A stretch of 31,220 nucleotides of DNA from a virus, in IMG/VR virus record IMGVR_UViG_3300033153_006426, positions 1 to 31,220 of that record; one strand, given 5' to 3'. Both the position numbers and the translations under genes were made by a program. The notes below the pieces were generated by a model that was not told the DNA's origin, did not search any database, and saw nothing but the letters and a program-made list of their open reading frames with translations. Positions 6,586 to 28,058 of this stretch are shown here, in pieces. Position 1 is the first letter of the stretch. Each line of letters starts with the position of its first letter.

Positions 6586-6613
6586 TTGACATTCCCACTC
6601 ATTGTGGTATAAT
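6586..6613 (+). promoter_or_regulatory. Strong early sigma70-type promoter (cassette copy 1)
   Basis: TTGACA at 6586-6591 and TATAAT at 6608-6613, 16-bp spacer, with a TGG just before the -10. It is preceded by TTATTTCC and followed by ATACATGTAAGTTGG, both shared with the promoters at 12132 and 17305. It drives the small genes from 6660 onward. Confidence 0.88.
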
Positions 6614-8792: not shown

Positions 8793-9032
8793 ATGCTAGT
8801 AACATTAAAAGAATTTGCAAAGACAACAAAAACACTTAATTTAAATGATATGAGTATGTATAAGGCAAAAGGACTGCCTATGGATGGCGATAAAGTTGAT
8901 GATGCAGTGGCGAAAGCATGGATCAAAGATTTTGAGAAGAAACGGAAGGAAGAAATTGGTGAATATAACAGCAGTGTTAAAACCAGACAGGTGAATAGAG
9001 CAACTGCTAAAAAAGTGAAGAAACAATTATGA
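8793..9032 (+). CDS. Hypothetical small basic protein, 79 aa
   Basis: The ATG follows the previous TGA immediately and the stop overlaps the methyltransferase start as ATGA, so coupling is clear on both sides. The protein is Lys-rich, helical by composition, with a C-terminal RATAKKVKKQL. The stretch GLPMDGDKVDDAVAKAW might be a small DNA-binding fold, but I cannot name one. Confidence 0.7.
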   Translation: MLVTLKEFAKTTKTLNLNDMSMYKAKGLPMDGDKVDDAVAKAWIKDFEKKRKEEIGEYNSSVKTRQVNRATAKKVKKQL

Positions 9033-10795
9033 ATGTTCTTTCACTTTTTGATGGTATGTCGTGTGGTAGAGTTGCACTTGATAGGCTTGGCATAAAAGTT
9101 GATAATTACTTTGCGAGTGAGGTTGACAAATATGCTAAGATTGTCAGTACTGCAAACTACCCTGATATAATACAGGTTGGCGATGTAAGAGCTGTAAATG
9201 GGCATGATTTGCCTAAAATAGACTTATTAATAGGTGGGTCGCCATGTTTTGTTGCAGACACTAAGATTATCACACAAAATGGTTACAAGCACATTGAAAA
9301 TATTGAAGTTGGTGATTATGTACTGACTCATAAAAACAGATTTAAAAAAGTCGTCAATATTGGAGGCAAGATTGCAGAAACAATTATATTAAATGCACAG
9401 GGCATCAAACCAACTGAAACGACATATAATCATCCTTATTATGTTAGGGAAATGCGTAGAAAATGGAATAAAAATAAGCGAAAATATGAAAGAGTTTTTT
9501 CTGAACCAATTTGGAAGGCCGTTGGTGAACTATCAAAGGGGGATTTTATTGCATCTCCTATTAATAACAAATCTATAAACACAATGAATCTGACATCAAA
9601 TGCTGCTATAATAGATGATATTGTTTGGTTGCCCTTCAAGAAAAAAAATTATACTAAAATAGAAAAACCGGTGTATAATTTAGAAGTAGAAGATGATAAC
9701 AGTTACACCGCCAACAATGCAATAGTACATAATTGCCAGTCATTTTCCATGTCAGGCAAACAAAATGGTATGTCTACAGGTGATATTGATGTCACCACAT
9801 ATGAACAATATGTTAAATTAAAAAATGATGGTGTTGTGTTTGACGGACAATCTTATTTGTTTTGGGAATATATTAGAGTATTGAAAGAGACCAAACCTAC
9901 ACATTTTTTACTTGAAAATGTTAAAATGGCAAAACAATGGGAACAAATATTGACGAAAGCAATAGGTGTCGAACCAATTGAGATTAACTCTTCACATCTT
10001 TCTGCACAAAACAGAAAACGTTTGTATTGGACTAATATAAAACGTGTTGGACAACCTGCCGATAAAGGAATAATGCTCAAAGACATTTTAGAGGATGGTT
10101 TAAATCAAATAGGTGCATCAAGAGGTAGATATCTAATTGATGGTAAAATGAAACCCGCTGGGTTAACAACACAACGAATTGAACTTAGAAGTGATAACAA
10201 ATCAAATACTTTGACAACAGTACAAAAAGATAATCTTGTAGTCGATCGGGATAAAAGTCATTGTATTGATGCTAATGAAAAGATTAAAAATGGGTGTATT
10301 CAAGTAGGCGAGGCAGACCTAAATGGACATGATATTATAAAAAGAATTTATAGCCCAGAAGGGAAATGCCCCACTTTAACTGCTGCAAGTGGAGGAAACC
10401 AAGAAAAGAAAGTAGAAGTTGTTAACGATGTTATATTAAACAAGCTTCAAGAAAAAAACTCTACTATAGATGGTTATTCTGTTAGTGATGATGGCATACA
10501 ACCACATGCAAGAGGAAGGAAAATTTTATCAGAATACGGAAAATTATTATACACAGAATCCGACAAAACACAAACTGTAACAGCATGTCATATGCCCAAA
10601 TTACTAACAGAACCATTTTTATCATGGAGAAAATTAACACCTTTGGAGTGTGAAAGATTACAAACACTTCCTGATAATTACACAAATCACGTTTCAAACT
10701 CACAACGTTATAAAATGATAGGAAATGGTTGGACTGTTGATGTTATAGCTCATATATTTGATCATATTTTTAATCCTCCTTTTTATCTTTTTTAG
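9029..10795 (+). CDS. DNA (cytosine-5) methyltransferase precursor interrupted by a mini-intein
   Basis: 588 codons, of which residues 73-235 are an intein; the spliced enzyme would be 425 aa. Motif I is LFDGMSCG (about 6-13), motif IV GGSPCQSFS spans the insertion, motif VI is LLENVKM, motif VIII QNRKRLYWTNI, motif IX is near ERLQTLPDNYT and motif X GNGWTVDV. The set is complete, so an active C5 methyltransferase is expected after splicing. The variable region between VIII and IX is long and should hold target recognition. The last residues are PPFYLF, a tail shared with polymerase, RNase H and the second methyltransferase here. It overlaps the upstream gene by four bases. No cognate restriction enzyme is visible, so host-restriction evasion is the likely role. 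Confidence 0.93.
   Translation: MNVLSLFDGMSCGRVALDRLGIKVDNYFASEVDKYAKIVSTANYPDIIQVGDVRAVNGHDLPKIDLLIGGSPCFVADTKIITQNGYKHIENIEVGDYVLTHKNRFKKVVNIGGKIAETIILNAQGIKPTETTYNHPYYVREMRRKWNKNKRKYERVFSEPIWKAVGELSKGDFIASPINNKSINTMNLTSNAAIIDDIVWLPFKKKNYTKIEKPVYNLEVEDDNSYTANNAIVHNCQSFSMSGKQNGMSTGDIDVTTYEQYVKLKNDGVVFDGQSYLFWEYIRVLKETKPTHFLLENVKMAKQWEQILTKAIGVEPIEINSSHLSAQNRKRLYWTNIKRVGQPADKGIMLKDILEDGLNQIGASRGRYLIDGKMKPAGLTTQRIELRSDNKSNTLTTVQKDNLVVDRDKSHCIDANEKIKNGCIQVGEADLNGHDIIKRIYSPEGKCPTLTAASGGNQEKKVEVVNDVILNKLQEKNSTIDGYSVSDDGIQPHARGRKILSEYGKLLYTESDKTQTVTACHMPKLLTEPFLSWRKLTPLECERLQTLPDNYTNHVSNSQRYKMIGNGWTVDVIAHIFDHIFNPPFYLF
9245..9733 (+). mobile_element. Mini-intein (163 aa) at the catalytic Cys of the cytosine methyltransferase
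   Basis: It begins with Cys (CFVADTKI) and ends ...IVHN followed by Cys, the canonical class 1 intein borders. The N-terminal splicing block contains the ENIEVGDYVL strand, block B is TTYNHPYYV with the conserved His, and block F is VYNLEVEDDNSYTANN. There is no room for, and no sign of, a LAGLIDADG or HNH endonuclease, so this is a minimal splicing domain. The first extein residue after it (Cys236) is the methyltransferase nucleophile of the PCQ motif, so splicing is required for activity. Confidence 0.93.
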
Positions 10796-11307: not shown

Positions 11308-12109
11308 AACTATTAGTGAAATAGAGGAATATGTAGAGAGTAAGGCATCCCAGCCTATCAACAAATTGATATATCCTCATAAATTAGAGGAAATGATCAA
11401 CAATGATGAAAGCGAACCTGCATCATACATAAGGTTGATACCACTAATGACTAAAAGGACAGTTGACGTTGCTGCCCAGTTGACAAAGGAAAGCATGAAG
11501 CCTATGAAGATAAGCCAAATTATTCTGCCTATCATGCCAGTAGAGGATGTCATACAGAATAATTGGACAAGCGTACAGGGGACTCACTTGTTAGCAGAGT
11601 ACATGAAATATGGTAAAATAAAAGGTGTTGCCAAATATGCAGCATTCAAAGCGGAAAGAACTCTTGGTGGTTTGCTTCCTGCAGAAATAGCATATGCAAT
11701 GAAACAAGGTTTTAGGGGGTCTGGTGTAGATAATCCACACGAAAAGGTTTTATATGCTGGTCATAACAGACGATCAATTCCTATGGCATGGGAATTCATG
11801 AAACCAGAATCAGAAGAGGAAGAAGAAACCCTCCGAATCATATTAGAGTTTATTAGAATGACCGCAGTGGGTGCATATGGCGAGCAAGTAATAACCGCCC
11901 CCATAAGTTGGAAAATAGAATTTGTCTCCGAACCATACGAGAATTTCCTCATGTACAGACGTTGTGGGATTGATAATGTTACCGTCAGATTTGGCGGAGA
12001 TGGATCTTTTAAGGCTATGGAAAGTGGCATGCCATTTGCAAGTTTGTCTATGTCTATGAATGAATTAGATTACCCTCGACCAGAAGATTTCAGAATTAGA
12101 AATAAATAA
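11291..12109 (+). CDS. Tail-tube-fold baseplate protein (gp48/gp54-type junction protein)
   Basis: 272 residues. The second half resembles contractile-tail tube and tube-initiator proteins: RRSIPMAWEFMKPESEEE, an ILEFIRMTAVGAYG helix, ITAPISWKIEFVSEPYENFLM, then VTVRFGGDGSF and a final SLSMSMNELDYPRPEDF strand. In T4, gp48 and gp54 have this fold and form the platform where tube polymerisation starts. I cannot say which it is; the shorter length (T4 364 and 320) could fit either. Its ATG lies 17 bases inside regA with GAGGG upstream. It is likely late, from the TATAAATA at 10809. Confidence 0.7.
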   Translation: MSTKYKTISEIEEYVESKASQPINKLIYPHKLEEMINNDESEPASYIRLIPLMTKRTVDVAAQLTKESMKPMKISQIILPIMPVEDVIQNNWTSVQGTHLLAEYMKYGKIKGVAKYAAFKAERTLGGLLPAEIAYAMKQGFRGSGVDNPHEKVLYAGHNRRSIPMAWEFMKPESEEEEETLRIILEFIRMTAVGAYGEQVITAPISWKIEFVSEPYENFLMYRRCGIDNVTVRFGGDGSFKAMESGMPFASLSMSMNELDYPRPEDFRIRNK

Positions 12110-12131: not shown

Positions 12132-12159
12132 TTGACATTCATTTTAAACATGGTAAGAT
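12132..12159 (+). promoter_or_regulatory. Early sigma70-type promoter (cassette copy 2) upstream of structured RNA
   Basis: TTGACA at 12132-12137 and TAAGAT at 12154-12159, 16-bp spacer, with the same TTTTTCC before the -35 and a downstream ATGTAAGATGGTTAAT close to the other two cassette copies. Transcription should start just before the folded RNA at about 12184. Confidence 0.8.
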
Positions 12160-12183
12160 AGTAAATGTAAGATGGTTAATTTA

Positions 12184-12297
12184 ATTTGCGAGCAAGGGCG
12201 ACATTGAATAGTCGCAAATCGGGAGAGGTTGAGTCGACAGTTGCAACTGTTCTCGAAAACAGACTCTAAACAGGTTTAAATCCTGTCCTTGCTCTCC
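12184..12297 (+). ncRNA. Structured RNA with a tRNA-like T-arm and acceptor, not a standard tRNA
   Basis: A 17-nt T-arm-like hairpin (stem ACAGG/CCTGT at 12270-12274 and 12282-12286, loop TTTAAAT) is followed at once by CCTTGCTC (12287-12294), which pairs perfectly with GAGCAAGG (12190-12197). That is tRNA acceptor/T-arm geometry, about 105 nt across. Between them are a 5-bp hairpin GCGAC/GTCGC (12198-12215), the palindrome ACAGTTGCAACTGT, and a hairpin CTGTT/AACAG with a six-base CTCGAA loop that recalls a serine-tRNA anticodon loop lacking one base. A normal D-loop, a seven-base anticodon loop and an encoded CCA are missing. It could be a degenerate tRNA or a different stable RNA. It has its own early promoter and no ORF. 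Confidence 0.5.
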
Positions 12298-12319
12298 TTA
12301 ACTTTATATAGATGTCACC

Positions 12320-12327
12320 TATAAATA
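12320..12327 (+). promoter_or_regulatory. T4-type late promoter for the intein-bearing kinase gene
   Basis: Exact TATAAATA, 27 bases before the GTG start at 12355, between the structured RNA and the ribosome site GGAG. Confidence 0.78.
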
Positions 12328-12354: not shown

Positions 12355-14013
12355 GTGGTTATTAAATTAGTAGAGTCAAAGGCAGTGGTAGAGGAATATC
12401 AATCACTGCTCGAAAAATTGATAATAGTTAATAAAGGACAAAAGTTTGGACAAGTGGTATTGATGGGCGGCGGAGCTGGATGCTACCCAAAAGGCACTGA
12501 ATTCTTTTCTGATAATGGTTGGAAAAATATAGAGGATTATGAAGAAGGTGATAAAGTATTACAAATAGATCCTGAAAATCTCAAAGGAAATTTAGTTGCT
12601 CCTGATAATTATGTAGAAATTCCGCTCGATAAATTTATCAATATTAGAAACAAAAAAGTTAATTTCACAACATCATTAGATCATAAACATCTTGTTATCA
12701 ATGAAAAAACAAAAAAGAAAGAAATAAAAAGAACATACGAACTTTTTGAAAAACATAATAAAAACGTCAGTCTTATAAACACATTCGATTATGCTGGTAA
12801 TGGAATAGATCATACAGATGATGATATTCGTTTGAAAATTAATAATATAAAAGACCAAACAGAAGAAGGAAATGAACTTGAAAATTATTGGTATGATTGT
12901 GACAAACACCAACAAAAAATCGTAATGGATGAAATTCTCCGAGAAGACATTGTCCCCTCATCAACTTCTGAACAATCTATAAAAGTCATACAATTTATAT
13001 TTGCGTCAAATGGTATCATTGCGGATTTTACATTTGATGGTACTGTGTATACCTTATTATTAAATGATCGCAGTGAGAATATAACATCAGTGTCTAAGAT
13101 GGACAAACAAGAAAATGAAATGATGTATTGTTTCACTGTTGATAGTGGGTTTTTTGCAGTTAGACAAAACAACCAAATATATGTGTCTGGCAATTCGGGG
13201 AAAGGTTTCTCAATCAAAAACTTTACAAACATGGGTGATTCTTACAGAGTGCTAGATGTTGATGCTATTAAAGCAACACTTTTAAAAATAAATAAACTGA
13301 CAGGAAAATATCCTGAATTAAAAGGACTTGATTTAAGAACACCAGGTGATGTGTCAACTCTTCATCATTTTGTTGCGAAGGAAAGAGATGGAAAAACATC
13401 ATTACAAAAATCAATACTACAGGATACTCTTGGTAATGCTATTCTTTCTGCAGATCCAAGAAGAAAACCTAATTTGCTGTTTGACAAAACTCTGAAAACT
13501 ATGAAAGAGCTGAAGAAAGTTATCAAAATGGTAGAAGAGCTTGGATATGATAAAAAGGATATTCATGTTATTTGGACAATGACTGATTTTCGTGTTGCAA
13601 TGTCAAGAAATTTAAAAAGGAGCAGAATAGTACCCGAAGACATTTTGATGGGAACACATGAAGGTGCTGCAAAAACTATGTTTGATCTTATCAAATCATT
13701 CAAAAGCATCCGAGATATATTTGATGGTGAATTTTACGTCATAAACAATAACGAAATACCAGGAAATGTTTTCAACAAACCGGCATTCAGAGAATTTATC
13801 AAAAAAACAAATGAGGGTATTATAAGCGAAAGAAACGTTGCCGAGAACAAGTTTAAGTATTTGAGACTCAAAAAGGCAGGGAAAGATATAGAATTTACAA
13901 AACGGCATGAAACTGAACTGATGCAATGGCTATCTGATAATATCCCAAGAACTAAAGAGACTGCATATATTTTTGATTATATTAAAACAAATTTTCCTAA
14001 AGTTAAAATCTAA
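12355..14013 (+). CDS. P-loop kinase-like (zeta-toxin-like) protein precursor with intein in Walker A
   Basis: 552 codons with an intein at residues 43-280; the spliced product would be 314 aa. Joining the exteins gives GGGAG plus SGKGFS, a Walker A loop. Beyond it are VLDVDAIK, a strand VIWTMTD and an Arg-rich segment FRVAMSRNLKRSR like the LID of P-loop kinases and zeta-type enzymes. The substrate is unknown. A late promoter precedes it, which is odd for a nucleotide-metabolism kinase and may mean a role late in infection or in the virion. The start is GTG with GGAG upstream. The stop overlaps the convergent minus-strand hub gene by four bases. Confidence 0.75.
   Translation: MVIKLVESKAVVEEYQSLLEKLIIVNKGQKFGQVVLMGGGAGCYPKGTEFFSDNGWKNIEDYEEGDKVLQIDPENLKGNLVAPDNYVEIPLDKFINIRNKKVNFTTSLDHKHLVINEKTKKKEIKRTYELFEKHNKNVSLINTFDYAGNGIDHTDDDIRLKINNIKDQTEEGNELENYWYDCDKHQQKIVMDEILREDIVPSSTSEQSIKVIQFIFASNGIIADFTFDGTVYTLLLNDRSENITSVSKMDKQENEMMYCFTVDSGFFAVRQNNQIYVSGNSGKGFSIKNFTNMGDSYRVLDVDAIKATLLKINKLTGKYPELKGLDLRTPGDVSTLHHFVAKERDGKTSLQKSILQDTLGNAILSADPRRKPNLLFDKTLKTMKELKKVIKMVEELGYDKKDIHVIWTMTDFRVAMSRNLKRSRIVPEDILMGTHEGAAKTMFDLIKSFKSIRDIFDGEFYVINNNEIPGNVFNKPAFREFIKKTNEGIISERNVAENKFKYLRLKKAGKDIEFTKRHETELMQWLSDNIPRTKETAYIFDYIKTNFPKVKI
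12481..13194 (+). mobile_element. Intein (238 aa) inserted in a Walker A loop, with probable endonuclease remnant
   Basis: It starts with Cys43 of the precursor (CYPKGTEFFSDNGWKNIEDYEEGDKVL is the N-terminal splicing block pattern). Block B is FTTSLDHKHLVI. The C-terminal block runs MYCFTVDSGFFAVRQNNQIYVSGN, followed by Ser as +1 residue. The penultimate residue is Gly, not the usual His. Between about residues 100 and 200 of the intein an IQFIFASNGIIADFTFDGTVYTLLL stretch resembles the C-terminal part of a LAGLIDADG-type domain, but the acidic active-site helices are not clear, so the endonuclease looks degenerate. Confidence 0.85.
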
Positions 14014-27520: not shown

Positions 27521-27569
27521 AAAATAATGTTCAATAAATTTGCTTGGTATTTGGTACTAAACATGATAG

Positions 27570-27577
27570 TATAAATA
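27570..27577 (+). promoter_or_regulatory. T4-type late promoter for the homing endonuclease gene
   Basis: Exact TATAAATA, placing the transcript start at about 27583, right at the 5' arm of the hairpin that covers the ribosome site of the endonuclease gene. Confidence 0.75.
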
Positions 27578-27581
27578 TATT

Positions 27582-27647
27582 AGACTGTCTTTCTCTTGGC
27601 CGAGACTGATGGTTGCTTTTAAAAACTATCAGAAGAGGAGACAGTCT
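27582..27647 (+). promoter_or_regulatory. Hairpin that sequesters the homing endonuclease ribosome site
   Basis: AGACTGTCT (27582-27590) pairs with AGACAGTCT (27639-27647), and after a small bulge CTCTT (27593-27597) pairs with AAGAG (27633-27637). The Shine-Dalgarno GAGGAG (27635-27640) lies inside the 3' arm, which ends at the base before the ATG. Confidence 0.75.
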
Positions 27648-28058
27648 ATGTCAGAAGAAAAGTTTTATGTGTATGTTTATTTAGATCCAAGGAAACCAGG
27701 GAAATACGATTATGGTGAAGATGATGAGTATTCGTTTGAATATTTGCCATATTATGTAGGGAAAGGGCATGGAAGGAGATGGAAAGGTCACTTATCACCA
27801 AGTTCTTTGAAGGAAATCTCTCATAAAAATCATAAAATAAATAAAATTTTATCAGAAGGATATAATCAAAAAGATTTTATTATTAAAACAAAAGAAAATA
27901 TGAATGAATCAGAATCACTTGATTTAGAAATGAAATTAATTAAAACTATTGGTAGGGCTGATATGGGCGACGGCCCACTGACGAACTTGACTGATGGCGG
28001 CGATGGTGTTAGTGGACGTGTATATACGGATGCACAAAAGAAAGCAAAAAGTGAATGA
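27648..28058 (+). CDS. GIY-YIG homing endonuclease, catalytic half (ends at in-frame TGA)
   Basis: 136 residues from ATG 27648, which has GAGGAG upstream. The catalytic domain is clear: FYVYVYLDPR (the GIY position), LPYYVGKGHGRRWKGHL (the YIG position with the catalytic Arg), a central Glu in LDLEMKLIKTIGR, and LTNLTDGGDGVSG. Such Seg-type free-standing enzymes cut related phages to spread their own gene. The frame stops at TGA 28056-28058, yet the same frame stays open to 28568 and encodes the DNA-binding repeats, so the gene appears interrupted by one stop codon. Activity of this half alone is doubtful. Confidence 0.82.
   Translation: MSEEKFYVYVYLDPRKPGKYDYGEDDEYSFEYLPYYVGKGHGRRWKGHLSPSSLKEISHKNHKINKILSEGYNQKDFIIKTKENMNESESLDLEMKLIKTIGRADMGDGPLTNLTDGGDGVSGRVYTDAQKKAKSE

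Follow-up and report, generated by a model that had tools for sequence, protein, structure and literature searches.

Intergenic position and expression signals of the RNA element

The gap between the gp48-like baseplate gene (ending at 12109) and the phrog_5268 kinase-like gene (starting at 12355) raises the question of what kind of RNA, if any, is encoded at 12190-12297. The window, that is, the whole 31.2-kb record analysed (31,220 nt), was assigned to a T4-like phage by its homologues of gp32, RegA, the gp43-type polymerase, RNase H and the late sigma factor. No ORF longer than 27 aa lies over the element, and ARAGORN called no tRNA gene in the window, so the element has no tRNA neighbours. 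The features of the locus are as follows:

12132-12159, + strand: sigma-70-type early promoter TTGACA-16-TAAGAT, one of three copies of the cassette in the window
12166-12189, + strand: transcript leader, its start site placed by the spacing from the −10 box
12190-12197, + strand: 5′ strand of the acceptor helix, GAGCAAGG (from the fold); RNase P cut likely before G12190
12198-12215, + strand: D-like hairpin of 5 bp, GCGAC-ATTGAATA-GTCGC, lacking the U8 linker and a GG in the loop (sequence and fold)
12219-12256, + strand: long central arm standing where a tRNA has its anticodon arm, UCGGGAG/UUCUCGA plus GGUUG/CAACU with a 12-nt loop (from the fold)
12257-12269, + strand: single-stranded linker of 13 nt, AAACAGACTCTAA, in the place of the variable region (from the fold)
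12270-12286, + strand: T-arm of 5 bp, ACAGG-TTTAAAT-CCTGT (sequence and fold)
12287-12294, + strand: 3′ strand of the acceptor helix, CCTTGCTC (from the fold)
12295-12297, + strand: 3′ tail UCC in place of the discriminator base and the CC of CCA, the A not being encoded (from the sequence; probable 3′-end)
12320-12327, + strand: T4-type late promoter TATAAATA, serving the gene that follows
12355-14013, + strand: intein-split downstream gene, encoding a P-loop kinase-like protein (phrog_5268)

An earlier reading of this DNA, based on the letters alone (the sequence-only reading), had credited the RNA with a cassette promoter of its own and placed it ahead of a late promoter, and both signals were found. 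The cassette of 12132 recurs at 6586 and 17305, and a similar stretch (ATGTAAG..G.T..TTTA) stands just downstream of all three copies. Comparison with the copies at 6586 and 17305 revealed that the first ~18 nt of the leader correspond to this conserved initial region and are not specific to the RNA, while the element starts just beyond it. Judged by the promoter type, expression would be early, and the element is probably expressed. The late promoter lies downstream at 12320, and the late transcript initiated there does not include the element.

Two genes of the window contain inteins, the kinase-like gene (12355-14013) and a cytosine methyltransferase gene (9029-10795), and the homologue of the kinase in Tenacibaculum phage PTm1 carries its intein at the identical site. 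Elsewhere in the window, a strong hairpin (z −3.6; region 27560-27660) buries the Shine-Dalgarno sequence and the ATG (27650) of a GIY-YIG endonuclease gene, with the late promoter TATAAATA at its left foot. This arrangement is reminiscent of how early transcripts of T4 keep I-TevI, soc and e silent.

The element is tRNA-like and is not a tRNA

The acceptor strands GAGCAAGG and CCTTGCTC (12190-12197/12287-12294) form Watson-Crick pairs at all eight positions, and the T-arm leads into the 3′ acceptor strand without any gap, which agrees with the tRNA-like geometry noticed in the sequence-only reading. The acceptor, T-arm and D-like helices, the last closing a loop of 8 nt, are all perfect, and mismatches of the kind left by decay are absent. 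The tail CTCCTTA (12294-12300) also matches the anti-Shine-Dalgarno sequence; this candidate was rejected, as the motif occurs four times in the window, the number expected.

The minimum free energy (MFE) of the element was −40 kcal/mol versus −26.4 ± 3.4 kcal/mol in shuffled sequences (z −3.95). It was the lowest MFE among 2,075 scan windows of both strands, with stronger z-scores seen in other windows of the same scan (25 shuffles each). The GC content (47% vs. 34%) fell into the top 0.7% of windows. A perfect T-arm with a tRNA-type loop combined with a perfect 8-bp acceptor helix in range appeared in 12 of 1,000 dinucleotide shuffles of the whole window (1.2%), a rate that ignores the intergenic place, the promoter and the additional D-like hairpin. 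We conclude that the RNA element at 12190-12297 is real.

ARAGORN and Rfam, both suggested as checks in the sequence-only reading, gave no tRNA match: ARAGORN recognised no cloverleaf in the element, and Rfam returned nothing at the gathering threshold and no tRNA (RF00005), tRNA-Sec (RF01852) or tmRNA at E ≤ 10. No 7-nt anticodon loop with five sound pairs and U33 could be found between the D-like hairpin and the T-arm; an apparent anticodon arm, CTGTT/AACAG, was discarded because its loop has 6 nt and its formation costs 6.6 kcal/mol. U8, the GG of the D-loop and C56 of the T-loop are all missing, and what the element has in common with a canonical tRNA is the acceptor helix and the T-arm with its T-loop (TTTAAAT, without C56). 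The combination typical of tmRNA, a tRNA-like domain with a tag reading frame, was not found in the element either. The earlier description of a non-canonical tRNA-like RNA lacking a normal D-loop and a 7-nt anticodon loop is thereby upheld by the sequence, the fold and the failed tRNA models, and the element is not a tRNA.

The acceptor fold outweighs the proposed alternatives

Two competing folds had been proposed for this RNA, the acceptor helix giving way to a pairing of TCGCAAAT with 12184-12191 and to a helix between GGAGAG (12222-12227) and CTCTCC. Both alternative helices exist and are able to form together, although TCGCAAAT is located at 12212-12219, one position from the 12213-12220 given earlier. 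When forced, they reached only −31.5 and −33.7 kcal/mol, respectively, versus −41.4 kcal/mol. Long perfect helices are commoner in the element than in shuffles (two of 8 bp vs. 0.16; 3% of shuffles), which would favour a regulatory RNA that alternates between the acceptor fold and these pairings. However, because the alternatives lie approximately 8-10 kcal/mol (7.7-9.9) above the acceptor fold and the pair probability of the acceptor is 0.99-1.0, the claim of bistability fails, and we regard such a switch as highly improbable. The leader helix (12184-12191/12212-12219) was never the best fold at any nascent 5′ length tested.

The sole near-equal alternative was GAGUC/GACUC (12231-12235/12262-12266), at −39.8 kcal/mol or 1.6 kcal/mol worse than the best fold, and this rearrangement stays inside the central arm, leaving the acceptor, the D-like hairpin and the T-arm intact. 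GACU of the linker may pair with AGUC in the loop of the central arm.

Search for relatives

Neither megablast nor distant blastn detected a homologue of the element in phages, and none was found among the matches listed in protein-anchored IMG/VR scans that used gp43 and the two neighbouring proteins, both individually and as alignments. The proteins of this phage are at most 36-41% identical to their best relatives among the matches listed. DNA patterns (acceptor plus D hairpin, T-arm, promoter cassette) and genome contigs yielded no homologue, and a covariance model searched against 1.1 Mb of loci plus about 50 whole records found none either; matches in contigs L003 and L082 were rejected as chance matches within genes. 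The regions directly upstream of the relatives of the kinase gene yielded no comparable element.

In a small set, the best non-self match of the single-sequence covariance model was T4 RNA C, with a marginal 19.2 bits (E 0.005). In the 1.1-Mb search, however, T4 RNA C did not appear in the list at E 10, and scores of 11-18 bits are reached by true tRNAs with this model. The other matches were mostly tRNAs, tRNA-Ser genes being among the top ones. By blastn, no convincing match was found among the collected loci.

Long tRNA-like genes in other phages

The window and six other T4-like genomes were surveyed with a descriptor consisting of a perfect T-stem, a TTYRANN loop and a 7-bp acceptor within 95-160 nt, outside the tRNAs called by ARAGORN. 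Seven rows were obtained, compared with 0.68 in shuffles (maximum three in 60): two in Citrobacter phage Ci1, one in Vibrio phage EniLVp02, one in PTm1, the element of the window and an overlapping pair in PTm1 (L227), which was judged to be a chance occurrence and set aside. Five of the rows, the element included, are intergenic or tRNA-cluster genes. A looser acceptor/T-arm scan also caught T4 RNA C.

The genes of Ci1 (77083-77319), EniLVp02 (115996-116118) and PTm1 (197680-197801) are 113-123 nt long and, like the element, have an acceptor and a T-arm around an expanded middle and were missed by ARAGORN. Those of Ci1 and EniLVp02 retain a tRNA D-arm, unlike the element, and the EniLVp02 gene is located in a tRNA cluster. 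The middle of the PTm1 gene has no stable fold (z ~0, no better than shuffles). As tRNAs, such long genes scored better in Rfam than the element, with 55 bits for Ci1, 35 bits for an IMG/VR contig (L195) and 16 bits for EniLVp02, the Ci1 genes scoring as tRNAs with inserts. Two long tRNA-like genes, both with an enlarged anticodon domain, lie side by side at the Ci1 locus (L258 17683-17920), where the deposited annotation shows a single pseudo-tRNA. The PTm1 element (L235 19480-19601) occupies 122 nt of an unannotated gap; its acceptor and T-arm are perfect, and a tRNA D-arm is absent. It also occurs in PTm5, in a copy that is 99.4% identical and hence uninformative. In other phage contigs, genes resembling tRNA-Leu whose anticodon regions are odd or very long (L195 2471-2576, L198 2290-2396, L196 5300-5915) were missed by ARAGORN, and a permuted tmRNA was called by it in a 150-kb phage contig (L088 8352-8825).

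T4-like phages thus repeatedly carry long tRNA-like genes overlooked by gene finders, and the class is not uniform. A broader generalisation, by which these phages would commonly encode 105-140-nt tRNA mimics with absent or disrupted anticodons, the element and T4 RNA C being two of them, acting in trans against tRNA-targeting immunity or tRNA processing of the host, appears rather unlikely at present.

Proposed nature of the element and alternative explanations

Our preferred reading, to which we assign a probability of roughly 0.55, is that the element is the gene of a stable, free-standing RNA of ~108 nt, non-coding, tRNA-like and of the T4 RNA C kind, which would be matured by tRNA enzymes and act in trans. 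The stack of acceptor helix and T-arm is a recognition feature for RNase P and the 3′ enzymes. Transcription would start early from the promoter at 12132, and the 13-bp acceptor/T-arm stack would be taken for a tRNA by the host RNase P and 3′-end enzymes; since these enzymes recognise the stack, cleavage of the precursor starting at 12166 would fall before G12190, and its 3′ end would be trimmed near CC12297. The structure of the ends would then confer stability on the RNA. As the RNA has no anticodon it cannot decode, so the central arm and the tRNA-like half would be expected to act in trans.

The likeliest such action, though only weakly favoured, would be mimicry, the RNA possibly serving as a decoy that binds, early in infection, a host protein that handles tRNAs, such as a defence nuclease that cuts tRNAs or an enzyme of tRNA processing. 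Mimicry is a reasonable candidate because phages escape tRNA-targeting or tRNA-cutting defences by means of true tRNAs (PMC10264068, PMC11555353). Those RNAs resemble the proposed role in being phage-made, tRNA-shaped and in conflict with tRNA nucleases, but they are true tRNAs with anticodons, whereas the element has none.

The element could also be a class-II tRNA gene (tRNA-Leu/Ser type) that has diverged far and has an expanded or interrupted anticodon domain, either a relic or a gene functional after removal of a small intron-like insert. By eye, the D-like hairpin GGCGACATTGAATAGTCGC looks like the D-arms of tRNA-Leu, and both the tRNA-Ser genes among the top covariance model matches and the tRNA scores of the long genes in Ci1 and the IMG/VR contigs (55 and 35 bits) point in the same direction. 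However, no Rfam tRNA match appeared even at E = 10, no 7-nt anticodon loop is recoverable, and the loss of U8, the D-loop GG and T-loop C56 from a molecule whose helices are perfect is unlike a decaying gene, which leaves this origin a rather unlikely alternative. The fold might instead work in cis on the kinase gene, as an RNase P processing site or by shaping the early read-through transcript. No terminator was found from the element to the kinase gene, and in the modelled early read-through RNA the Shine-Dalgarno sequence of the kinase gene (12344) is largely paired with 12312-12319, a segment absent from the late transcript, where its GGA is freer. Nevertheless, control in cis is less likely because that pairing partner lies outside the element; moreover, the tRNA-like fold is the same in the long modelled transcript, and the regions just upstream of the kinase gene's relatives yielded no such element. 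We consider this explanation unlikely.

A chance structure without function would account for the failure to find homologues, and the 1.2% of shuffled windows containing a T-arm with an 8-bp acceptor is in its favour. It has very little probability, however, because the element lies between genes and immediately follows a strong promoter cassette, has the extra D-like hairpin and shows the lowest MFE of the window.

Comparison with known systems

Bacterial tRNA-Sec shares the 8-bp acceptor and the 5-bp T-stem with the element, which differs from it by having no UCA anticodon, no 6-bp D-stem and no RF01852 match. T4 RNA C (species 1 RNA) comes closest to the element, which appears similar to it in kind, homology not being claimed. 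T4 RNA C and RNA D are stable RNAs without a known role (PMC3014915, PMC9697503), and, like the element, they are small RNAs of a T4-like phage that have no anticodon. According to a 2010 review, T4 had no functionally characterised trans-acting small RNA at that time (PMC3014915); rnaD of a T4-like phage gained a convergent mutation in laboratory evolution (PMC12685909).

In T4 RNA C, as in the element, a 3′ acceptor-like strand comes immediately after the T-arm, and neither RNA matches RF00005 (T4 RNA C reached only 17.5 bits for tRNA-Sec). The differences are considerable: T4 RNA C and RNA D are 139 and 119 nt long, compared with ~108 nt for the element; T4 RNA C has about 45 extra nt 5′ of its acceptor-like strand and shows no convincing sequence similarity to the element; it adjoins a tRNA cluster, whereas the window contains no tRNA gene; and it is classed as late, in the tRNA cluster (PMC9697503), whereas the element has an early-type promoter. 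The acceptor pairs of T4 RNA C are partly broken in its relatives, which vary too little to prove this helix. If our reading is correct, a second tRNA-like RNA, standing alone behind an early-type promoter of its own in a distant T4-like lineage, together with the other long genes of T4-like genomes, would make what was an isolated oddity part of a class of RNAs open to comparison and to testing, for instance against defence systems that cut tRNAs.
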